Shown: positions 1 to 11,939 of the stretch, piece by piece | Layout of the letters: each line of letters begins with the position of its first letter | Numbering within the stretch: position 1 is the first letter of the stretch | IMG/VR virus record: IMGVR_UViG_3300020442_002364 | Location: 1-64,000 of that record | Reading direction: 5' to 3' (one strand) | From: a virus | Length of the DNA: 64,000 nucleotides | Notes under the pieces: model-generated | What the model was told of the DNA's origin: nothing | Databases searched by the model: none | The model's input: only the letters and a program-made list of their open reading frames with translations | Program-made: the position numbers and the translations under genes

Positions 1-548
1 TTGACAGTATATCCAGTATCGATGAGATCTTCATCACCCTCAAAGATATCTCCCTGCTCATCTTGATATTCAAAGAGTTCGCATTGTAGTTTGAATATGT
101 AACCCTTTCCTAACTGATAGAATGGTTCTTCATGTTCTACAAACTTGATCTCAAAATAGTTACTGCTAAGTGGGAAGTAAATGAGATCCCCTTCTTGAGG
201 TCTCTCTCCTACTTCTACATCTTTATCCAAGAGTAAGAACTGAGAAATTAAATCTGAAAATCTTTGCTGTGAGATCACCATTGTAATCTCATCTGTCTGT
301 CTGATTCCAAACTTAGTCAGTAAGTCACCGCCACCTTGAAATCCTTCATTGTTCTCTAGGTATGCTTCAATAACATATGAATCGTCAAACTCAGAAATAA
401 TTTCCTCATTGAACACGCCATCCTTTCTAATAAGTTGCCTGGGAATGTATAGAATATCCATTCCAAACATCTTAAGATACTCCTCCACAAGGTTCTGCTG
501 AAGGAATTGTTCGTTGCGAGTGCCGTGTGTGAAGAATACGTTTCTCAT
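1..548 (-). CDS. 14: Neck protein gp14 (partial, 3' end outside window)
   Basis: An open frame starts at the ATG at 548-546 and runs off the left edge without a stop, giving at least 182 residues that begin MRNVFFTHGTRNEQFLQQNL. In T4, gp14 (256 aa) joins gp13 on the connector after packaging and completes the neck to which the tail attaches. The visible part starts with the N-terminal HGT-x-NEQ segment and an acidic, aromatic-rich middle that I recognise from cyanophage gp14. The start overlaps the gp13 stop by ATGA, so the two are translationally coupled, in the T4 order 13-14. The identification rests on sequence resemblance recalled from the family plus synteny. The C-terminus cannot be judged. 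Confidence 0.85.
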   Translation of the reverse strand, partial: MRNVFFTHGTRNEQFLQQNLVEEYLKMFGMDILYIPRQLIRKDGVFNEEIISEFDDSYVIEAYLENNEGFQGGGDLLTKFGIRQTDEITMVISQQRFSDLISQFLLLDKDVEVGERPQEGDLIYFPLSSNYFEIKFVEHEEPFYQLGKGYIFKLQCELFEYQDEQGDIFEGDEDLIDTGYTV

Positions 549-1360
549 CCGATCATATCCATTGGTGGGAATTCATGACTAGAAAGCATTTCGTCCTCAA
601 GTTTCTGGACTGCTTCTTTGCCCTCATTGTAAATAAATTCACCATTCATAGTGATGCCACCAGGTAACTGTGCTCCCTGGAACTTAATTAAGTTGGCACC
701 CCATTGTCTACGAATCAATGCAGTAAGATAACGCTTGACCCAAAGATCATTGTATACTGCAGCAAAGTCAGACGGATCAACTGCACGATAACAATCGAGA
801 ACTAAGAAGTCTCCATCTGCAACATCTTCTTTAAAGTCGATGTCAAGATATAAACGGTCACCACGCATTTGATATCTAACCTGCTTCTGACCCTCAAGTA
901 AGAAATAGATATCTTCTAATCTACGATTGACCATCTCGTATGTCAGGATCTCTGTGTTTGTAAGATCCCAAAGATCATTCAGTCTCCACTGATAGCGAAC
1001 GTCAAACAAGTTAGTGACGTTCTTAGAAACAAAATCAAATACTTTGACTACACCTGTAATATAGTCTGGAAGTTGGATATAGTTATTTTGAGTTTTGTAT
1101 GTGATACTAGTGCCCGCTGAAGTTGCATTAGTAACAGTTGTGTCGGTGTCCGTAGTCATAGCGTCGATGACAACCTGAGACATAGGAACTTTTAGGAAGG
1201 TTCTAATATAACCATCCATGTGACGCTCATTATAATATTGAATAGCATCATCGACCAGATCAGAAATCTGATCATCGTCAACGTTGATCTCTAATACTGG
1301 GGCACCGAGCTGACGCAAAGCGTAGTCGATAAGTTCTTGTCTTGTGCTAGGTTGTGACAT
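545..1360 (-). CDS. 13: Neck protein gp13
   Basis: This 271-aa protein (T4 gp13 is 309 aa) forms the head-tail neck with gp14 and stabilises the filled head. The N-terminus (RQELIDYALRQLGAP at about residues 7-21, followed by an aspartate-rich DDD-Q-SDLVDDAIQ helix) is the typical start of cyanophage gp13. The rest alternates acidic and aromatic segments and has no signal peptide or membrane helix. It starts two bases after the stop of the giant protease gene and overlaps gp14 by four bases, so it probably belongs to the same late transcript. The conserved N-terminus and its place directly before gp14 make the call firm. Confidence 0.92.
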   Translation of the reverse strand: MSQPSTRQELIDYALRQLGAPVLEINVDDDQISDLVDDAIQYYNERHMDGYIRTFLKVPMSQVVIDAMTTDTDTTVTNATSAGTSITYKTQNNYIQLPDYITGVVKVFDFVSKNVTNLFDVRYQWRLNDLWDLTNTEILTYEMVNRRLEDIYFLLEGQKQVRYQMRGDRLYLDIDFKEDVADGDFLVLDCYRAVDPSDFAAVYNDLWVKRYLTALIRRQWGANLIKFQGAQLPGGITMNGEFIYNEGKEAVQKLEDEMLSSHEFPPMDMIG

Positions 1361-1362
1361 GA

Positions 1363-4300
1363 TTATAATGGATTGACGTTGAATCGGATACGTACATAAT
1401 ATGTAGTGTTGGGATCAAGTGTTACGTCCTGGGGTAAGACGTATGATGTTAAGTTTGCAGTGTTTCCAAGAGATTGGTGAACAATAGTAGTGAAATTAGA
1501 ATCACCAGAGAACTGCCAATCACTAGAGGTATGCTGATATCCAGCGATAAACTCAGATGCGTTAATAGAAATTGTTGGATTGAAGGATGATGTAATTGTT
1601 TGAATCTCTGGTTGATCGACAAATGGAGTTGTGAAAGTTGTATTGGCAGTGTACGAACTTTCTAATCCATTATTATCTCTGTATTTCACCTGAACGTTGT
1701 ATGATGTATTAAAAGCGAGAGTGCCTGCAGGTACAGTGAAAGATGTTAGATTTCCAGTATCTCCATTCGTAAAAGTATTTGTGGTATCGTATACAGTTAC
1801 GTTATCAGACACTCTTCTAATTCTCCAGAAAGTAGAGAAGTGTGTGGATCCAGTGTACTGGGAAACAAAAGCAGCAGAGGTAATAGTTGGAACTCTGTCT
1901 AAAGTTTTGTTTGTGTCTGGGTCAGTATTTACAGTGACCGATGTTGGAGCACTTACAAACTCAGACTCATTAACAGTCAAAGTAACAGTGTTACTGGTTA
2001 CTGTTGTTGCAGCAACGTTAGTTAGAGTACAACGATACTTATGAGATGGAGTTGTAGGATAAACTGTAACAGGAGTGGTATATGATGGTGAGTTAGCACC
2101 ATTTACAGGTGAGAAAGTGTTTCCGTCATCTATGGATAGATTCCACTGATACGAGACCACATCGCTAGTAATAGATGCAGCGATAGTAAATGTTCCCTGA
2201 GCACCTTCAATAACTCCAAGGTCAGCAGGTTGTTGTGTAATTGTAATTACTCTGAGTACAGTTAAAACTGCAAATGTGCTTGTCGAACTTGCAGCAGATC
2301 CAACCAAACTTACAACACAACGATATCTGTCATCATTATCATCAGCATAAACTAAAGTTGGGGTGATATATGTAGCTGATGTTGCTCCACTAACAGGACT
2401 ATAGTTTGCTCCACCATCGTCAGATCTTTCCCATTGATATGTTGGTGTTCCGCTACTTGCGTTAACCGTAACTGCTAAAGATGCTGTACTACCTTCATTA
2501 CCAGTTGTATTCGCTGGTTGTGCAGTAATAGTAAATGTTCTTTGAACTGTAAGAGTTACTGTATTTGAGTAAACTGGGGCAGAAGCTCCAGGTGCATTGA
2601 CTTCACATCTATACTGATCGTTATTGTCATTTGCATACACTAAACTTGGAGTTGTATATACGGATGATGTTGCTCCAGATACACCACTCCAACTATTACC
2701 ACCATCATCAGATTTCTGCCACTGATAAGTAACTGCTGGTTCATGCTGGGATTGTAATTGTACACTTCCTCCTCCACCTCCAGTTGGAGTTGTGAAAGAT
2801 TCTGTATCAAAGGACGAAGATGCTGCATTAGCACCAATCTGCCCCATAGTTACATCACCGACACAGGTAAATGATGCTGTTGCATTTTCATCAGCAGTAG
2901 CATCTGTAGGTTGTGTCGTAACTGTTGGTGTTACTGTCTCTACCTGTAGAGTTGCTGAACCACTAATTACTTGGGTTGCTTGAGGAGCATTTAAAACACA
3001 ACGATAACGATGCTCATCGTAAGTAGAATCTAGAATTGGAGTCGTATAAGTTGCTGCAGTTGCACCACTACCACCAACTACGTTTGACCAATTTGCTCCA
3101 CTATCAATAGAGAACTGCCACTGATAAGTAATATCTGCTGCGTCATTGTCAGAAGTGTCAGCAGTTACAGTAAACTGGGAGGTCCCTCCTACAGCACCAG
3201 TGATATCTACTGGTTGTCCAGTGATATTAATTGTTCTTGTGAGGAATAGTCTAGCAGCGTTACTTGTCACTGCTGACAGAGATCCAGCAGCATCGCAAAC
3301 TACTCTAAAATATCTTCCGTAATCGGAATCATATGAAGTGGTTGCAAGTGTATATGCAGCGCTAGTAGCACCATTTATGTTTGAATATGTAACACCATCA
3401 TCAGATCTTTCCCATTGATAAGTAATTGTGGCACCATCAAGAGTGGATGCAGCAGAAGTAAAGGTTGCTGAAGCTGGTGCTACTGGTGTTTGATCTAATG
3501 GTTGAGTTCCAATAGTAACAACACGATAAACTGTTAGTGTTGCTGCATTACTAGTTGTTGGAGTGACTGCAGTTGAACTATCAAGTACACAGCGATATTG
3601 ATAGGAATTGTAATTGTAATCATCATCAACAGTTAGAGTTGATGTAGTTTCTCCACTGTGACCAGCGAGAGATGAAATGGTGGAGAAGTTGTTTCCTCCA
3701 TCTGTAGAGTATTCCCACTGGAATGTTACTGTAGATGCATCTGAGGCAGTACCAGCAACAGTAAACGTTGCATTAGTTCCTGCAGATGCTTCTACTGATG
3801 CGTTAGATGGTTGTTGTGTAATCGTAACTTGAACACCAGTACCAGTAGTAACAAAACTAAAGTTCCTAGTTTGACCAGAGTTGAGGTGTGTTACTATAAG
3901 ATTATATGTTGTATCATTAAAGGATGATGTAACTGTACCACCAAGAATGCCTGTCGTTGTTGTGAAAGTAAGTCCAGATCCAGTTAAAGCTGGTGTTGAT
4001 TGGATTGAATAATTTCCTTCTGAAATTGGTTCATTTGCCCATGTAGTATATGCAGACAAACCAAGATCAATACCAGATACGACTGCATTATTAGCAAATG
4101 GACTTGCCGATAGAGCACCTGAGTTGTTGACCCAAGTTACAACTTGATCAACATAAGGATATACAAGTCCTCTCGTCGTAGTTCCAACTCCGTTTGGATC
4201 ATAGTCAACACCAGATTGCACTGGTCTACCAGTTCCAATACTAGTTGAGGTGCTTACTGTATTGACAGTGATGGCACCAATCATTCCACCGTGAGACTGG

Positions 4301-6768
4301 CATTGATAAACAAATGAACCTGCTGTATTTGGTGTCCAAGATACTGTGTTATTGCCTGTAGAACCCTGACCAGTGGCAGCAGGAGTGGATACATCAGCAC
4401 CACCAGAACTAACTCTTATGCGGAATGGGTGAGAAGCAGCAACGTTTGAAAGGTTGAAATTAATTGTGTCTCCTACAGAAATAGTAACAGGTTGATTATC
4501 ACCACTTACAGATCCAAGTCTGTCAGTTCCACTTAGAGTGTAACGTGAAGCATCTGGAGCAGTTACAGTAATGTTATATGTTTGTACACCGCTATATGCT
4601 TCCTGAGTATCTGTCTGAGTGAACAATGTAGTATTGCTATAGATAGGACCATCAGTTTCTTCGTGGGTGTCACTGATGATTCCCATGCTGCCACCACCAC
4701 CAGTAGTAGTTAGAGTAGCAGATTGAGCTAATGCAATTGTAATTTTATAATTTGCAGCATCCTCACTGACGATTGTAAACCAAGATGTAATAGATTCTGC
4801 ATAGATATCAAGATTACCTACTACAGTTGGATTTGGAACATTTAATTGTACTTTTTTACCAACCTTGTTCGCAAAATAAGTAGCATCTTGTGATGCATAT
4901 GTAACTTCAACTTGACTTGATCCGTTTGTTACAGCAAAAGGATTAACACCTAGAGGTCTCTCTATCATCGTATCGGTCGGATACGCTGTATTACCAGAAC
5001 CAGTTTGAGAGAATACAGAGATGTCAGATCTGACCCATGTCTTTGCTAAACCTGGAAGATTGCTCGTGGTATAATCATAAGAATTTTTTTGTACCCAAGA
5101 TAAAACTGCTCCAGCAACAATAGGTCCAGAGAACGATGTACCATTGATCGTGGAATAATTATTGGTGTTGGAATACGTGGTATTAGCAGTCCAATCATAA
5201 CTAGGAACAAGGACTCTAGTTCCAGGTGCTACTGTGGTTACACCTAAACCATAGTTAGAGAAGTCTGCCCAGGTATCATTATACTCTGTTGCACCAACAG
5301 AAATTTTATCAGTATCAGAATCAAATGCGTTGAATACAGAATCAAGGTATCCTGCAGTCCTGTTTCCTCCAACAAATTTTCCTTGCAGAGGTCCAGCAAA
5401 ATTATCAGATGAATCTCTGAATCCGTTACCTGCAGACCTAACTATGATAATATTGTTCTGTGCAACTGTTTTTTCAATTTCATCTAATACTTCTAATTCA
5501 ACTCCAGCATCCGTTCCGCTCTCATTTAGTTCAATAAACGGATATCCTCCGTTTGGAGTTGTTGGTCCAAAAGATGCATTGATCACTGCAGCTCTAGTGT
5601 TTCCTTTGTAGTTGGCATCGGTGCTGTCATTGTGATCTATGACTGCTTGATATGCAGTCACAATCCCAGAATAGGATGCTGATAAGGATGAGTTGAATGC
5701 TTTTAGTGAATAAATTCTAGACTTATTAGAGACTCCTGCAGTTCTTCCTGCAGCTAAGATAGCGCAATATGTACCGTGACCATTGTCATCCTCATTATTA
5801 GTTCCATATGCACCACTGTAGTGGGACATTTGGAATACTCTATATTGTTGTTGCTCAGAAAGACCGTTTAAGTCAGTTACGAAATCTGGATTGTAAAGTT
5901 CTGGGTGAAGTGCGGCATTATTTCCAGTTGGTCTAGATGAACCACGAACACCAGAGTCAATGACGTACAGATCAACACCGTCACCATCTTGAGTGTAACT
6001 GTATTGAGCGTTCATATATGAACGATCGATCTTACTAATCCTATCTAAGTGCCAGAAGTCATGGAGGTTGATAGTTCCATATCTATCTGGAGATACAGCA
6101 TATCTACCCATTCCAGAGTGCGCTGTACAGTAATAGAATAAGATTGCAGGAGTCCCAGAAGTGGTTGCAAGTCTAGTGTATGCACCAGCTTGTCCTGGTG
6201 TGCCATTTACAGTTACACCAGTATTGTATTCCGATCCACCACCCCAGGTTCCGTTGGCGGTTAGAGAAAATCTGAATGGATGACCAGCGTTAGAGATGTC
6301 AGACTGATCAAATGTAAACGTTCCGCCCTGTAAGAAACCAGTATAGTTAGGAATTACATTATACGTACCTGACTGACTATTTGAAAATACGTATAAGTTT
6401 TGACCACTAATGTTTTGTACCTTTACGTAGATTGTACTGAATCCAGTAGAGGTAAGATTTCTAGTTCCAGTGGAGGCATCTCCAGATGCTTGGTGTTGGG
6501 ATCCCTCTTCATATTCAACTGAAGTTGAAGCTATCTCAACGGGATCGCAAGCAAATTTCTCTGCATCCCAAAAAGCACTCTTAACTCCTTCCACACCACG
6601 AATGTCCCCGAGAGCGTTATCTTCGTTCTCCTCAGGTACATCTACAGTCAGAATGCCAAAGCTTCTAAATTTATCTACAAACGTTAAGTAACTATGTTGC
6701 CCCAGGATAGAGTCTTTGACTGCTTCTAACTGAGAATTATTAGTTACCTTGACTACTACCCTTTTCAT
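1363..6768 (-). CDS. Giant subtilisin-like protease with cupredoxin-like and Ig-like domains
   Basis: 1801 aa. An N-terminal segment (about 1-75) resembles an I9-type propeptide. A cupredoxin-like domain follows (about 110-225: H163, then C214, H217, M220). The subtilase (S8) catalytic domain covers about 235-565, with D271 in YVIDSGV, H331 in DDNGHGT, oxyanion N448 in SAGNG and nucleophile S545 in NGTSFSGP, so the triad is complete. A second cupredoxin-like domain lies at about 730-835 (H780, C823, H826, M829). Next come about six Ig-like repeats (about 1010-1610), each with a YQW-x-x-S-x-D centre and a late YRC, and then fibronectin-III-like segments at the C-terminus. No signal peptide is visible. 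Lying between the fibre cluster and gp13, it is probably a virion protein. It may process virion proteins or cleave host surface material (inference). It has its own late promoter and a terminator upstream. Confidence 0.85.
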   Translation of the reverse strand: MKRVVVKVTNNSQLEAVKDSILGQHSYLTFVDKFRSFGILTVDVPEENEDNALGDIRGVEGVKSAFWDAEKFACDPVEIASTSVEYEEGSQHQASGDASTGTRNLTSTGFSTIYVKVQNISGQNLYVFSNSQSGTYNVIPNYTGFLQGGTFTFDQSDISNAGHPFRFSLTANGTWGGGSEYNTGVTVNGTPGQAGAYTRLATTSGTPAILFYYCTAHSGMGRYAVSPDRYGTINLHDFWHLDRISKIDRSYMNAQYSYTQDGDGVDLYVIDSGVRGSSRPTGNNAALHPELYNPDFVTDLNGLSEQQQYRVFQMSHYSGAYGTNNEDDNGHGTYCAILAAGRTAGVSNKSRIYSLKAFNSSLSASYSGIVTAYQAVIDHNDSTDANYKGNTRAAVINASFGPTTPNGGYPFIELNESGTDAGVELEVLDEIEKTVAQNNIIIVRSAGNGFRDSSDNFAGPLQGKFVGGNRTAGYLDSVFNAFDSDTDKISVGATEYNDTWADFSNYGLGVTTVAPGTRVLVPSYDWTANTTYSNTNNYSTINGTSFSGPIVAGAVLSWVQKNSYDYTTSNLPGLAKTWVRSDISVFSQTGSGNTAYPTDTMIERPLGVNPFAVTNGSSQVEVTYASQDATYFANKVGKKVQLNVPNPTVVGNLDIYAESITSWFTIVSEDAANYKITIALAQSATLTTTGGGGSMGIISDTHEETDGPIYSNTTLFTQTDTQEAYSGVQTYNITVTAPDASRYTLSGTDRLGSVSGDNQPVTISVGDTINFNLSNVAASHPFRIRVSSGGADVSTPAATGQGSTGNNTVSWTPNTAGSFVYQCQSHGGMIGAITVNTVSTSTSIGTGRPVQSGVDYDPNGVGTTTRGLVYPYVDQVVTWVNNSGALSASPFANNAVVSGIDLGLSAYTTWANEPISEGNYSIQSTPALTGSGLTFTTTTGILGGTVTSSFNDTTYNLIVTHLNSGQTRNFSFVTTGTGVQVTITQQPSNASVEASAGTNATFTVAGTASDASTVTFQWEYSTDGGNNFSTISSLAGHSGETTSTLTVDDDYNYNSYQYRCVLDSSTAVTPTTSNAATLTVYRVVTIGTQPLDQTPVAPASATFTSAASTLDGATITYQWERSDDGVTYSNINGATSAAYTLATTSYDSDYGRYFRVVCDAAGSLSAVTSNAARLFLTRTINITGQPVDITGAVGGTSQFTVTADTSDNDAADITYQWQFSIDSGANWSNVVGGSGATAATYTTPILDSTYDEHRYRCVLNAPQATQVISGSATLQVETVTPTVTTQPTDATADENATASFTCVGDVTMGQIGANAASSSFDTESFTTPTGGGGGSVQLQSQHEPAVTYQWQKSDDGGNSWSGVSGATSSVYTTPSLVYANDNNDQYRCEVNAPGASAPVYSNTVTLTVQRTFTITAQPANTTGNEGSTASLAVTVNASSGTPTYQWERSDDGGANYSPVSGATSATYITPTLVYADDNDDRYRCVVSLVGSAASSTSTFAVLTVLRVITITQQPADLGVIEGAQGTFTIAASITSDVVSYQWNLSIDDGNTFSPVNGANSPSYTTPVTVYPTTPSHKYRCTLTNVAATTVTSNTVTLTVNESEFVSAPTSVTVNTDPDTNKTLDRVPTITSAAFVSQYTGSTHFSTFWRIRRVSDNVTVYDTTNTFTNGDTGNLTSFTVPAGTLAFNTSYNVQVKYRDNNGLESSYTANTTFTTPFVDQPEIQTITSSFNPTISINASEFIAGYQHTSSDWQFSGDSNFTTIVHQSLGNTANLTSYVLPQDVTLDPNTTYYVRIRFNVNPL

Positions 6769-6777
6769 TCGGTAAGC

Positions 6778-6814
6778 ACAAAAAAGTCCTCTTTTGTATT
6801 TATACAGAGGACTT
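6778..6814 (-). terminator. Rho-independent terminator with embedded late promoter
   Basis: Read on the minus strand, a perfect 9-bp stem (AAGTCCTCT with AGAGGACTT, plus-strand 6806-6814 and 6784-6792) encloses a 13-base loop and is followed by a run of six T. It lies between the 104-aa gene (stop at 6819) and the protease start (6768), so it would end the upstream fibre transcript. The loop itself holds TATAAATA. Confidence 0.8.
6797..6804 (-). promoter_or_regulatory. T4-type late promoter for the protease gene
   Basis: Minus-strand octamer TATAAATA, an exact match to the T4 late consensus, 28 bases before the protease ATG. It sits inside the loop of the terminator, so the same 37 bases can end one transcript and start the next. 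No strong Shine-Dalgarno is visible before the ATG. Confidence 0.75.
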
Positions 6815-6818
6815 ATAG

Positions 6819-7133
6819 TTAATTCATTAGGTGGGGTAATTCAAAATTCTTTGGAACTGCCCCAGTTGGTTTTTCTAATGGTTTTGTGGTTTTTAGATCA
6901 TGCTTAGAATCAAAGGTGAATCTAGTTTTTACATGAGTTCGATCAGAATCAACTAGGAGATCGTAGTAATGACCATAACCAGTTTTGGTAAATGCAATTC
7001 CATAGATCGGTCTTCCTTGATATAAATCTCCAACCTTGTATGGAATCGTTTCCATCGTCCCATCAAAGTCAACGATATTAATAGTTGACTCTAGATGTTC
7101 TTTCTGTCTTAGTTCACTTGACTTCTTCAGCAT
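6819..7133 (-). CDS. Conserved small hypothetical protein (104 aa)
   Basis: I do not recognise this protein. It is soluble, with no membrane segment. Residues 20-60 form a compact, probably beta-rich stretch (VDFDGTM, then KVGDLYQGRPIYGIAF) that resembles a small SH3-like barrel. The C-terminus is basic and proline-containing. It overlaps the upstream 61-aa coiled-coil gene by 20 bases and is the last gene before the terminator at 6.78 kb. Its place at the end of a fibre/oxygenase unit hints at a virion or assembly role, but nothing in the sequence proves it. Confidence 0.7.
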   Translation of the reverse strand: MLKKSSELRQKEHLESTINIVDFDGTMETIPYKVGDLYQGRPIYGIAFTKTGYGHYYDLLVDSDRTHVKTRFTFDSKHDLKTTKPLEKPTGAVPKNFELPHLMN

Positions 7134-7301: not shown

Positions 7302-7958
7302 TTAATAAGAAAAATTGCGAATTAAACGATCTTGAACCTCTTGGAGATTCATAATTAAGTGTTCGTCCTTATATTTATCTAGGATATAAGAACATGATTC
7401 TGTAATGCTACTAATGCATTCCCTTACAGGTTCATTAATGACTTTACTTTCCATCCACCATACGGCACCTAACCTTTCACCTTCGGTGACTGGCATTACC
7501 TCATGGCGTACACCAGAAGGATAGCATATAAACTGTCCAAATTGAAGCTTAACTGGAATGAAGTCAACAGCATTGACATAGATCCTCAACTCTCCACCCT
7601 CATATTCATCTGGGTCAGAGAGAAATAATGTATGACTATAGTGAGTGAGGATCTGGTGTTCACCTCCCATCAAAGAAGAATCATTATGTCTGAAATAATG
7701 ATCTCCAACTCCATACTTATTAAAAGTAACAGGAGTTAATCTTCTAGGAACGACTTTGTTTACATACGATCCAATCTTATAGATTCCTTGATGAATCTGT
7801 GCGCTGAGTGCTTGATCGTATGCTTGTTTATTTACCTTGACAGGATTGTTTGGATTACTTCTAGCACCATCAGACCACTCTAAATTTTGAATTAGAGATT
7901 TGATAGTTTTAAGTTCTTCAATGTCAGGGTACTCATAGATATCGAATAATGAATGCAT
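7302..7958 (-). CDS. Fe(II)/2-oxoglutarate oxygenase, PKHD hydroxylase type
   Basis: 218 aa, a usual length for the PiuC/PKHD-type hydroxylases. Iron ligands are visible as H91-x-D93 (in FRHNDSS) and H152 (in SGVRHEV), with R162 placed to bind 2-oxoglutarate. The family signatures LFLSDPDEYEGGEL (residues 111-124) and PVTEGER-x-GAVWW are present, so the active site looks intact. Enzymes of this fold hydroxylate proline, lysine or small molecules; the substrate here cannot be read from sequence. The gene starts six bases after the 321-aa LamG-like fibre gene stops, and a second oxygenase follows the other LamG-like fibre gene, so a fibre substrate is a reasonable inference. Confidence 0.88.
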   Translation of the reverse strand: MHSLFDIYEYPDIEELKTIKSLIQNLEWSDGARSNPNNPVKVNKQAYDQALSAQIHQGIYKIGSYVNKVVPRRLTPVTFNKYGVGDHYFRHNDSSLMGGEHQILTHYSHTLFLSDPDEYEGGELRIYVNAVDFIPVKLQFGQFICYPSGVRHEVMPVTEGERLGAVWWMESKVINEPVRECISSITESCSYILDKYKDEHLIMNLQEVQDRLIRNFSY

Positions 7959-7964
7959 AATTTT

Positions 7965-8930
7965 TTAACCGTAACCAAATTGACTTCTTTCTGCGTCGTA
8001 ATTTCTTCTAATCTCTCCACTGCTTAACTTCCTATTATAAAGTCTCCACTTGTAGAGAGTGTTGTTTCCTGGGTTTCCTCTGGAACCCGTTCCATCGCTT
8101 CTAGCGTTAAACTTCGGATAACTGTTTCCGTTTGTATTCAGGACACCACCATTGGGGTAATTATATACTTGAATTAAACCACCGTTCAACCAAGTATAAA
8201 CTGCATTTCCATCATACGCTAATGCAACGTGTTGTGGAACGCTTTGAGCAAATCTTCCACCACTATCCTGCCAGAACCAACTTCGGTTGTTAGCGTACAC
8301 CGCCCACTGGCAGACACCGCTATCAGATCTCATTTCCCAACAGTTTTCTTTGTTGAAAAGAATATCCTCACCACCTTGGTTAGATCTCCACTGGAACCAA
8401 ACCTCACAAGTAAAATATGTCAGGTTTGTTGTCTGAGGCATGTAGCAGTGAGAACTTCCTGTAAATTGAAGACCACCGCCAAAATCACCACTATACGAAG
8501 GGGATCCGCTATTTGTAAATGATCCGTATCCACTACCAGAAACTAGGTTGTTGAGACTGCTGCCTCCAGTATAGGAAGATGGATTTGATACATCGTAATA
8601 TGCAATCAAACCATCTGTAGTATACCCACCGCCAGAAGCTAGTGCCTGCCAGAATGTTCCTGTGTAGATTTCAATCTGACCAAGTTCAGTGTTCCTTCGG
8701 ATAGTTCCAGCATATTGAGATCCCGTCCCTGGTCTTTGAGCGGTTGTTCCTGCAGGGAGTTTTAATCCGTCAGTAACTCCACCAAAATCAGCTCCTACGA
8801 CTGGGGATCCTACGTTAACACCAATTCTATTATTGCTGGTATCTACATTCAGAACGTTATTGTCAACAGAAATATTTCCGCTGCCGCTGAGCGCACTGAC
8901 GTTAATACTGCCTACGTTTAATGATGACAT
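7965..8930 (-). CDS. Small tail-fibre-like protein with LamG-like C-terminal domain (321 aa)
   Basis: Residues 1-60 are low-complexity S/N/V-rich repeats typical of fibre shafts. Residues 70-115 hold a module (LPAGTTAQRP, then an NT-x-x-x-E-x-Y-x-G-x-xW pattern) shared with other fibres in the window. Residues about 120-310 look like a LamG/concanavalin-A sandwich: a GLIAYYD start, a QFTGSS strand, an EVWFQW strand, and a WRLYNRKLS motif near the end. Such domains bind glycans or proteins, which suggests receptor binding. A GATAAATA late-promoter variant lies upstream and the PKHD oxygenase gene follows. It is clearly related in architecture to the 337-aa protein at 9.8-10.8 kb. Confidence 0.8.
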   Translation of the reverse strand: MSSLNVGSINVSALSGSGNISVDNNVLNVDTSNNRIGVNVGSPVVGADFGGVTDGLKLPAGTTAQRPGTGSQYAGTIRRNTELGQIEIYTGTFWQALASGGGYTTDGLIAYYDVSNPSSYTGGSSLNNLVSGSGYGSFTNSGSPSYSGDFGGGLQFTGSSHCYMPQTTNLTYFTCEVWFQWRSNQGGEDILFNKENCWEMRSDSGVCQWAVYANNRSWFWQDSGGRFAQSVPQHVALAYDGNAVYTWLNGGLIQVYNYPNGGVLNTNGNSYPKFNARSDGTGSRGNPGNNTLYKWRLYNRKLSSGEIRRNYDAERSQFGYG

Positions 8931-8965: not shown

Positions 8966-9164
8966 AAAGAGCATCGAGCAGATTTCCTTCGATGTCATAG
9001 TCCCAACGCCCAGAGTTGGTACATACAAAATATCCAACAGGATTCTGATTTCCGTTTGGTGGATAATTCCATCCATAAGCAAGAATTTTTTCGTTATTTG
9101 CAAATGGTTCACCATCTTCACCTAGAAAAACTGCTAGATGTTCAGTTAAATTAGATACAATCAT
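8964..9164 (-). CDS. Small hypothetical protein (66 aa)
   Basis: I do not recognise a family. The protein is acidic with an aromatic core (YGWNYPP, GYFVCTNSGRWDYD). Its start overlaps the stop of the upstream TIGR02466-type oxygenase gene by ATGA, so the two are translationally coupled. A late-promoter variant lies in its last bases, so it closes one fibre/oxygenase unit before the next begins. Confidence 0.6.
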   Translation of the reverse strand: MIVSNLTEHLAVFLGEDGEPFANNEKILAYGWNYPPNGNQNPVGYFVCTNSGRWDYDIEGNLLDAL

Positions 9165-9766
9165 AGTTCTAAGTAAGTTAAGGATGTTTCATCACCAACT
9201 ATTCCTTTGATCCAAACATTAAAAGAGATTGATAGTCTGATACCATCAGTCTCGTTTGGTAAAGTATCGTGCTTTAAGTGACTTGGGAAAAGAAAGAGAT
9301 CTCCGCCCATAGGTTTTTGAATACTATTGGGAACGTTTAAAATATTTACCTTCTTAACATTTGGACGAATGGTTGAATTAATAGTGTCATAGAATCTTAA
9401 TGGAGCATAGTCCATCTCTCCTGGGTAATATACCCCAGAGATGAAAGAGTTACTATGATAATGAGTCCTTACATAAGAGGTAGGTTTTACTCCAACTCCC
9501 CACATAGTTACCATATATGGTTCAATATCTTTGAATTCATATACGTCGTTAACCATGTAACGAACACAATGCATAATATCATCCTGCAATTTATCAAAAG
9601 CAGGATCTTTATTTAAGTCTTTGATGAAGTAATTATCTTCCATTGCGAGATAATTTTCTTCATTGCATCTTTCTTCAAGAATTTCTGTCCATTTTTCATG
9701 TTCAGTCTCTAAGGAAAACTTGACTAATGGTTTTGCAAAGAGAGGTACGATTTCATTGAGATACAT
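9161..9766 (-). CDS. Putative 2OG-Fe(II) oxygenase, TIGR02466-like
   Basis: 201 aa, the usual size of the TIGR02466 family found in many marine phages. Visible signature: THYHSNSFISGVYY (residues 101-114, candidate iron ligand H102 or H104), the distal histidine in FPSHLKHDTLPNE (H163/H166), and R177 in GIRLSISFNVW as the 2-oxoglutarate anchor. The active-site pattern looks complete. The natural substrate of the family is unknown to me. The gene lies 18 bases downstream of the 337-aa LamG-like fibre gene and overlaps the 66-aa gene, repeating the fibre-then-oxygenase order seen at 7.3-8.9 kb. It is not a close copy of that PKHD enzyme, so the two were probably acquired independently. Confidence 0.88.
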   Translation of the reverse strand: MYLNEIVPLFAKPLVKFSLETEHEKWTEILEERCNEENYLAMEDNYFIKDLNKDPAFDKLQDDIMHCVRYMVNDVYEFKDIEPYMVTMWGVGVKPTSYVRTHYHSNSFISGVYYPGEMDYAPLRFYDTINSTIRPNVKKVNILNVPNSIQKPMGGDLFLFPSHLKHDTLPNETDGIRLSISFNVWIKGIVGDETSLTYLEL

Positions 9767-9784: not shown

Positions 9785-10798
9785 TTATGGATATGGAGTC
9801 TCAGGTGCGAGTCCAAATTTACTTGCACTAGCACTATATAGGTTAGCAATTTCCGTTGCTTCTAAAGGACGATTCCAGATTCTAATACTAGCACAGTGTC
9901 CCATAAATGAGGAGTTGGAACCATAGGCATGACCAGACAGCAATCTTCCAACGCTGCTGGTATTAGCACTACCGATATCAGTAGAGATAGTTCTCCTTCT
10001 GTTTTGATAACCGTTAACGTAAATGGAACTAAAGTAAGATCCTTGTCCACTTGAAGCGGATCTTGCATCCCAGCAGGCAACAATTTGACTCCATGTAGAT
10101 GCAGGAGCATATGGTCTCATGTTTGAATTGCTGATGTCATTTCCACAGCAACCTTGAGATGGAGCTCCGAGTCTAAAATAGAATGAGTTTGCATAATCCC
10201 AATAACCAACCCAGAACCAGTTAACATCATTAGGAGAGTCATTGCTTCTATTGTGAATTAGACCATTACCTTGGTTAAATCTTTGTGGTTTAATCCACCA
10301 TTCAATAGTTCCTTTGAGTTTGTTCCATCCGTTATTTGTTGGGAAAGGAATACCACTTCCACCTCCACTTCCATTGCTGTTGTTATAAACTGCTCCAAGG
10401 TTATCAACGTTCTGGAAACTCCAGTTACCTTGAGCACTAGTAATAGTTACGTTTCCAATTATATTTTGCTGATCAATCCAAGTATTTCCACTATAACCAG
10501 TTCCATTACCTAAAGTTGCATCCCAGTTTGCAACTAATCCATTTGTAGGAATATTTGTAGTATCTGGATCTTCATACGTAGGAACCCATCTAGTACCGTT
10601 ATAATACTCCATTGTATTCGTGGTTGTATTATAACGCATTTCTCCAGACGAAGAACTAGGTCTTTGAGCCGTAGTTCCCTTTGGCATCTTGAGAGTTGTG
10701 TTTGCTGCAGAGCAATCCAGACTAACTCCACTAGAGGTAGAAACGTAACCGCTACCCGCTAAATTGTTAAGTTGGTCTACTTTTAAAATACTTGCCAT
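9785..10798 (-). CDS. Small tail-fibre-like protein with LamG-like C-terminal domain (337 aa)
   Basis: The N-terminus (MASILKVDQLNNLAGSG) and the following MPKGTTAQRP / EMRYNTTTNTMEYYNGTRW module (about residues 38-70) are typical of small cyanophage fibres. From about 85 to 330 there is a LamG-like sandwich: GLVANWDA at its start, an IEWWIKPQRF strand, a SQIVACWD strand, and the closing IRIWNRPLEATEI motif that marks many LamG domains. A Cys-Cys pair lies at about residue 215. Probably a receptor-binding or adhesion fibre (inference). The stop is followed 18 bases later by the TIGR02466-type oxygenase gene. Related in layout but not closely in sequence to the 321-aa fibre. Confidence 0.8.
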   Translation of the reverse strand: MASILKVDQLNNLAGSGYVSTSSGVSLDCSAANTTLKMPKGTTAQRPSSSSGEMRYNTTTNTMEYYNGTRWVPTYEDPDTTNIPTNGLVANWDATLGNGTGYSGNTWIDQQNIIGNVTITSAQGNWSFQNVDNLGAVYNNSNGSGGGSGIPFPTNNGWNKLKGTIEWWIKPQRFNQGNGLIHNRSNDSPNDVNWFWVGYWDYANSFYFRLGAPSQGCCGNDISNSNMRPYAPASTWSQIVACWDARSASSGQGSYFSSIYVNGYQNRRRTISTDIGSANTSSVGRLLSGHAYGSNSSFMGHCASIRIWNRPLEATEIANLYSASASKFGLAPETPYP

Positions 10799-11084: not shown

Positions 11085-11939
11085 TCAAGGTTTTGCATTA
11101 GTAGATACTAGGTAGTTGCTTCCAGTAGATCTTGTACCAGCATCGTCAAAGAGTAAGTCTTGGAGATTGTAATTATCAGGTGGATAACTACTCCAGAAAT
11201 ACAGGAAGGAATATGGTGTGTAGTTTCCGTTTGGTTCAGAATAAGTATTATTTCTCAACCACCATCTTCCACCATCTCCAGTTCTCCAGGTATTTGCTGG
11301 AACACCATTACCATAGTATTGTGGATTTCTCATTACATAACCAGTGTAGTTTCCTGCACTAGTGTTCCAAACTTTTCCTGGGCATTGGAAGTAACTTCTT
11401 AAGTTACCACCAGTTTGACCAAGTTGACCACGAACAAAGTTTACCATTGCTCTCCAATGATATGAAGATCTTGGATATACCAAGTCTAAACCAAGGGCAG
11501 TACCACTGTGATTATTTCTTGCATCATTGACACTACTACCACCAGTAATAGCATACATGTCAAATCCACCACCCTCTTCATCCATATCTACCCACATCTG
11601 AAGTGGTTGAGGCATAGATGGAGATTTGATCCAGTAATATCCAGATGTTTTTGTTGGATAATCTAATGCCAGTTGATATCCTGATGCAGCAGCGTTAGAT
11701 GAGCTAGAACCATCTGGAGCTCCAGTGAAGAGTGCGTGCCATGCACCACCTTCATAGAAAAGCAACTCTCTTGTGCTGCTGTTGTAGTACATAAATCCAT
11801 TGGCAGCTCCAGATGGATTTGATGTCAAAACAGGAACTCTAAGATTTCCGTCAATTTGTAATAGGTGTCCAGATGGGACTCTTACTGTATTGTTATACGT
11901 TGAGAATCCCTGGATATCGTGTACTGAAAGTGTGCTCAT
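11085..11939 (-). CDS. Tail-fibre-like protein with fibrinogen-like C-terminal domain (284 aa)
   Basis: Residues 1-75 resemble other fibres here (LRVPVLTSNPSGAANG, then MYYNSSTRELLFYEGGAW). From about residue 90 the sequence SGYYWI, then PQPLQMWVDMDEEGGGFDMY, matches the start of fibrinogen-C/FReD-like domains, whose hallmark is a YWI strand followed by a D-x-x-GGG-W/F turn. The C-terminal part is rich in W, Y and N (GGRWWLRNN, FLYFWSSYPP), as in lectin-like binding surfaces. It would sit at a fibre tip and bind a host glycan (inference). It lies three bases downstream of the 3190-aa fibre gene in the same direction. Confidence 0.72.
   Translation of the reverse strand: MSTLSVHDIQGFSTYNNTVRVPSGHLLQIDGNLRVPVLTSNPSGAANGFMYYNSSTRELLFYEGGAWHALFTGAPDGSSSSNAAASGYQLALDYPTKTSGYYWIKSPSMPQPLQMWVDMDEEGGGFDMYAITGGSSVNDARNNHSGTALGLDLVYPRSSYHWRAMVNFVRGQLGQTGGNLRSYFQCPGKVWNTSAGNYTGYVMRNPQYYGNGVPANTWRTGDGGRWWLRNNTYSEPNGNYTPYSFLYFWSSYPPDNYNLQDLLFDDAGTRSTGSNYLVSTNAKP

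Follow-up and report, generated by a model that had tools for sequence, protein, structure and literature searches.

Subtilisin-type peptidases of the S8 family have been recorded in several cyanophages. An S8 peptidase is listed among the genes common only to P-HM1 and P-HM2, where it is merely named (Sullivan 2010, PMC3037559); the sequence records call it a 'hypothetical protein', and its T4-GC number is 518 in that paper's text and 519 in the gene's record. The proteins of P-HM1, P-HM2 and MED4-213 resemble the one described here in their place before gp13 and in their layout, the exception being that P-HM2 carries its second cupredoxin at a different place. A 2648-aa protein of S-BM3 (OQ319121) is annotated 'peptidase S8' and T4-GC_519. 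Its S8 domain is ~45% identical in alignment, and the Ig repeats, the C-terminal module and a propeptide-like N-terminus are common to both proteins. In contrast, the S-BM3 protein lacks a cupredoxin between propeptide and enzyme, and gp13 does not adjoin its gene. A further group consists of the cyanophage subtilases of PHROG 9158/3677 (SSCSM1_228, PSSM2_297, SCREM1_165, SfFR1_192 and that of S-TIM54). These also combine a propeptide-like N-terminus with an S8 domain whose residues are intact, and they lie in structural gene blocks, but most are devoid of a cupredoxin and their C-terminal parts are different. BLAST with the catalytic domain studied here did not find them.

Outside phages, the same fold and motifs occur in the proteinase K/aqualysin subfamily of S8A. 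Those enzymes are secreted with a signal peptide, whereas the phage protein has no apparent one and carries long inserts and ~1200 aa of extra modules. Plastocyanin and amicyanin are soluble electron carriers; the phage cupredoxins, by contrast, are modules within a structural protein and putative copper binders. A literature search on cyanophages with subtilisin or cupredoxin found no study of the 1801-aa protein. The enzyme itself is already known; added here are its architecture, conservation, predicted propeptide, module shuffling and a probable link to the virion. These additions include the pro-cupredoxin-S8 layout and an alternative one in which the catalytic domain itself houses a cupredoxin.

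A predicted pro-subtilisin with structural modules

The window, a stretch of 64,000 nucleotides, covers the first 64 kb of a contig of 83.4 kb from a marine Prochlorococcus virus. Among isolates, the contig is closest to P-HM1, P-HM2 and MED4-213, Eurybiavirus cyanophages that infect Prochlorococcus. The protease gene occupies positions 1363..6768 on the minus strand, as do all window features given below. A sequence-only reading of this DNA had proposed an 1801-aa protein at 1363-6768, and this is a genuine ORF; its strand, which that reading left unstated, is the minus strand, where it runs from an ATG at 6768 to 1363, while the plus strand of the same interval contains 86 stops. The product belongs to family T4-GC 519 and PHROG 27200 (phrog_27200, E 0), and its orthologs in P-HM1, P-HM2 and MED4-213 are 58-59% identical over 93-94% of the length. 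The N-terminal third most likely amounts to an entire pro-subtilisin, of proteinase K type, and is followed by a remainder of structural type.

The Peptidase_S8 catalytic domain spans residues 228-591 (4996..6087). Compared alone with the Pfam family it gives an E-value of 1.1e-24 and 87.7 bits against a family cut-off of 21.8. A Pfam scan of the whole protein (E up to 1) did not list Peptidase_S8, but the domain by itself is clear. Among PDB sequences, aqualysin matches it best (E 1.1e-16), and proteinase K is also matched. The four residues named in the sequence-only reading are exactly as claimed and form the Asp-His-Ser triad in order plus the oxyanion Asn: Asp271 (5956..5958), His331 (5776..5778), Asn448 (5425..5427) and Ser545 within GTSF (5134..5136). 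None of them varies in an alignment of 83 family members. Among 50 diverse subtilases, down to ~20% identity with the query, Asp, His and Asn are likewise invariant, and Ser is present in 49 with one gap. Just 16 of 600 query positions are invariant in that alignment and D, H and N are among them, so the catalytic residues are conserved beyond chance.

An AlphaFold2 model from a shallow alignment gave the catalytic domain a mean pLDDT of only 55.5. The model made after distant subtilases of phages and bacteria had been added has a pTM of 0.83, with stretches of the catalytic domain at pLDDT <50; it places D271 at a strand end, H331 at a helix start and S545 immediately before a helix. Foldseek aligns it with keratinase, aqualysin and proteinase K at target TM scores of 0.72-0.77. 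As modelled, the S8 region has the subtilisin fold of proteinase K type. Together with the residue pattern, this supports a real, maintained subtilase for which proteolytic activity is predicted.

Residues 1-73 (6550..6768; the end is approximate) are predicted with high confidence (pLDDT ~83-94) to fold as strand-helix-strand-strand-helix-strand, the bab-bab topology of subtilisin propeptides. In Foldseek searches, the model aligns with unprocessed pro-subtilisin E (3whi, 578 columns) and with pro-Tk proteases, altogether over 578-609 columns, compared with ~345 columns for mature subtilases; judged from these column counts, the longer alignments must take in the propeptide. The same segment shows no significant I9 sequence similarity by Pfam, by PDB profiles or by profile-profile comparison with I9 sets. 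As sequence comparison fails, the segment is best regarded as working like I9 and not as a member of it. What the models support is an I9-like propeptide by fold and not by sequence, which precedes the enzyme and would dock on it as in pro-subtilisin. The earlier suggestion that the N-terminus resembles a propeptide is supported at the level of the modelled fold. A variable linker follows (residues 74-108; 6445..6549), with low pLDDT at 87-99, and self-cleavage would be expected within it. The proportion of columns at 97% conservation in the 83-sequence alignment is 11% for the propeptide, 9% for the linker, 38% for S8 and 41% for the C-terminus. A propeptide less conserved than its enzyme is the usual picture.

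Behind the enzyme, residues 592-730 (4579..4995) form a conserved domain (34% of columns at 97%) that has no Pfam match. Approximately six Ig-like repeats at residues 981-1600 (1969..3828) bear out the Ig-like domains proposed earlier (Ig_3 E 1.4e-11, I-set 3e-6) and match PHROG families of virion and head proteins. The protein ends in a beta-rich module (residues 1601-1801; 1366..1968), its most conserved region. Among isolates this module matches only P-HM1, P-HM2, MED4-213 and S-BM3, that is, only alongside the protease.

Conservation and gene neighbourhood

A relative of the protease is encoded by 126 metagenomic stretches, of which 80 were kept. Additional relatives come from isolates, one Prochlorococcus single-cell contig and one contig binned in a Dehalococcoidia MAG. 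Seven pairs give dN/dS values of 0.07-0.16, indicating purifying selection; dS is <1 in four of these pairs, and in the others it is near saturation, where the values are rough. The catalytic domain matched 10 records by BLAST, seven of them from four cyanophages. Most cyanophage isolates lack the family, and the protease is thus not a general cyanophage requirement. In a tree of catalytic domains, the S-BM3 type joins other marine phage subtilases weakly (0.60). In one copy from the metagenomes (L007), a TGA (3951-3953) interrupts the frame a few codons after H331; this reflects either an assembly error or a dead copy.

Only 2 nt separate the stop codon of the protease from the start of the gene directly downstream, gp13, the neck protein or head-tail adaptor Ad2 (545..1360; phrog_211, E 6.5e-43). 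This order is found in 56 of the 58 loci with room for it, or 57 of 58 when L007 is counted past its in-frame stop, leaving S-BM3 as the only locus without an adjoining gp13. The placement directly upstream of gp13 in the sequence-only reading is therefore a feature of nearly the whole family. The same is largely true of the late promoter it assigned to the gene: the T4-type element TATAAATA is present at 6797..6804, ~30 nt before the ATG, and 58 of 72 upstream regions (window and homologs) have ATAAATA 32-36 nt ahead of the start codon. Of the nine ATAAATA sites across the window, seven precede an ORF start by 26-60 nt, and the coding strand carries all nine; their total count is not above chance. 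The late promoter lies in the loop of a 9-bp hairpin followed by T6 (6784..6814), kept only in the window's closest relatives, which is possibly a terminator sharing bases with the promoter.

Upstream of the protease, in 59 of 72 loci, is a small conserved gene of 104 aa (6819..7133; phrog_26228). In two loci it is inverted yet still adjoins the protease (L085, 3080-3325; L117, 7983-8219). The tail-fibre/neck block of the window also holds two 2OG-Fe(II) oxygenase genes (7302-7958 and 9161-9766). Three further proteins in this region (7965-8930, 9785-10798 and 11085-11939) begin with a similar N-terminal segment of the TTAQRP...RYNT...Y-G-W type and differ in their C-terminal parts; the pattern suggests one shared attachment module on which the heads have been exchanged.

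Probable virion location and possible roles

The late promoter and the adjacency to gp13 place the 1801-aa protein with the virion genes. Its N-terminus, MKRVVVKVTNNSQ, has no signal peptide apparent on reading the sequence, which makes export of the protein by itself unlikely. No virion proteomics for P-HM1, P-HM2 or MED4-213 was found in the main texts of the literature. Evidence by analogy comes from SSCSM1_228 of phage S-SCSM1, a distant relative and not an ortholog, which has a propeptide-like segment and an S8 domain with D, H, N and S intact. Its record carries the note 'baseplate wedge subunit (virion protein)'. The S-SCSM1 paper reports 45 virion proteins by mass spectrometry, including three enzymes that are also flagged in the record (PMC9602691). 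In that record 48 genes are flagged as virion protein, while predicted structural genes such as SSCSM1_17, 211, 215 and 245 are unflagged; the flag therefore appears to mark detection. On the strength of the SSCSM1_228 flag, virion-borne S8 domains are likely to exist in cyanophages.

The 1801-aa protein is probably a self-processing protease carried on the virion, with activity and location both predicted. Within this reading the propeptide rests on modelling, and we infer the virion location and the self-cleavage. Late in infection, the I9-like propeptide would fold the catalytic domain and keep the enzyme inhibited during synthesis. The enzyme would then cut itself in the linker, near residues 70-110, making the first cupredoxin the mature N-terminal end. 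Anchoring of the protein to the particle may fall to the Ig repeats together with the conserved C-terminal module, so that the protease would ride on the neck, tail or head surface. There it could act on a nearby protein, either by trimming fibres at assembly or, a slightly preferred option, by cutting host envelope proteins at adsorption.

The latter option, a special case of the virion-borne protease, is tentative. It would make the subtilase a protein-directed counterpart of tailspike depolymerases, cutting host envelope proteins at adsorption or release. It is favoured by the fusion to modules of adhesive type, by the virion-protein flag on SSCSM1_228, a baseplate wedge subunit with a related S8 domain, and by the S8 genes of S-CREM1, Sf-FR1 and P-SSM2, which adjoin baseplate and tail-fibre genes. 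However, it has no known substrate, and the position beside gp13 suggests the neck more than the tail tip. A less probable alternative, with perhaps one chance in five, is that the enzyme cuts neighbouring giant fibre or neck proteins in the infected cell and need not stay active on the virion. Phages commonly process structural proteins, for instance by T4 gp21, and an assembly role would agree with the late promoter, the operon position with gp13 and the giant fibre genes, and the lack of an apparent signal peptide. On the other hand, gp21, the standard prohead protease, is already encoded in the P-HM2 neighbourhood, a free maturation enzyme would not be expected to carry long binding modules, and there is no known fibre cut site. 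The sequence-only reading had named maturation of other giant fibres, cutting of host surface layers and release of bound particles, all of which stand as candidate roles.

Two other explanations are judged unlikely. The subtilase fold might serve only as a structural or binding scaffold, as the many structural modules around it and the stop codon within the domain in L007 could suggest; yet none of the 83 aligned family sequences departs from D, H, N and S, which distant relatives also keep, while the ligands of the first cupredoxin have been lost at least twice, and the idea is accordingly given very little weight. Less credible still is cargo of host origin, a gene for metabolism or defence that has nothing to do with the virion. 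Many host genes do travel in cyanophage genomes, and S8 relatives occur at several genomic places, but no genomic relative outside phage-like contigs exceeds ~27% identity, and the fixed gp13 neighbour, the virion-type Ig modules and the late promoter all argue against cargo.

Enzymes that virions carry to breach the host envelope are familiar where the targets are sugars or peptidoglycan. If the favoured reading is true, the strictly conserved pro-protease within this Ig-rich structural protein would give ocean phages a counterpart directed at proteins; alternatively, it would mature fibres, in addition to the usual prohead protease. Three cultured phages of MED4 make the protease hypothesis testable.

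Cupredoxin modules

The cupredoxin-like part of the earlier description resolves into two domains, each with a full type-1 copper ligand set (His, Cys, His, Met). Cupredoxin 1 (residues 109-226; 6091..6444) sits between the propeptide and the S8 domain, with ligands H163, C214, H217 and M220 and a predicted pLDDT of mostly 83-97. Cupredoxin 2 (residues 731-839; 4252..4578), behind the S8 domain, has ligands H780, C823, H826 and M829. The profile of the second matches Prochlorothrix plastocyanin (1b3i, E 4.3e-6), that of the first has no convincing match in the PDB, and the two domains are linked by weak profile matches. Both carry the ligand motif CxxHxxM, as does amicyanin.

About half of the family has cupredoxin 2, which comes after the domain at residues 592-730 in the window and precedes part of that domain in P-HM2 and most relatives. 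S-BM3 has a second-type module within the catalytic domain (residues 292-398) and a first-type one after the enzyme. From these differing placements it follows that the cupredoxin modules move relative to the protease. The C, H and M ligands of cupredoxin 2 are kept in 52 of 52 aligned sequences, compared with C in 78 and H in 79 of 83 for cupredoxin 1. Ligands of cupredoxin 1 are lost in two sets of sequences (L018, L020, L031, L041 and L123; L085 and L117) in which D, H, N and S are always kept. The copper site of cupredoxin 1 is consequently dispensable for whatever selects the protease.

It is unusual for a protease to be paired repeatedly with plastocyanin-like domains. At least one intact CxxHxxM site is kept by each of the 51 complete family proteins, a degenerate first domain being accompanied by an intact second. 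This pattern and the cupredoxin within the S-BM3 catalytic domain favour a functional tie, in which the putative copper sites might act as a copper- or redox-dependent switch or serve in targeting; for example, a domain sitting between propeptide and enzyme could, when loaded with copper, control activation outside the cell. Against it, 225 phage records matched the N-terminal/cupredoxin query, such modules are common in cyanophage structural proteins, and the compensation pattern amounts to only ~2 independent losses. A tie of this kind is therefore doubtful. Cupredoxins also occur in a structural setting elsewhere: a virion structural protein of S-TIM5 (485 aa; L247, 5212-6669) has a cupredoxin ~40% identical to cupredoxin 1. 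At the same place, S-TIM54 encodes a protein of 2140 aa (L250, 6075-12497) that contains both an S8 domain and a cupredoxin.
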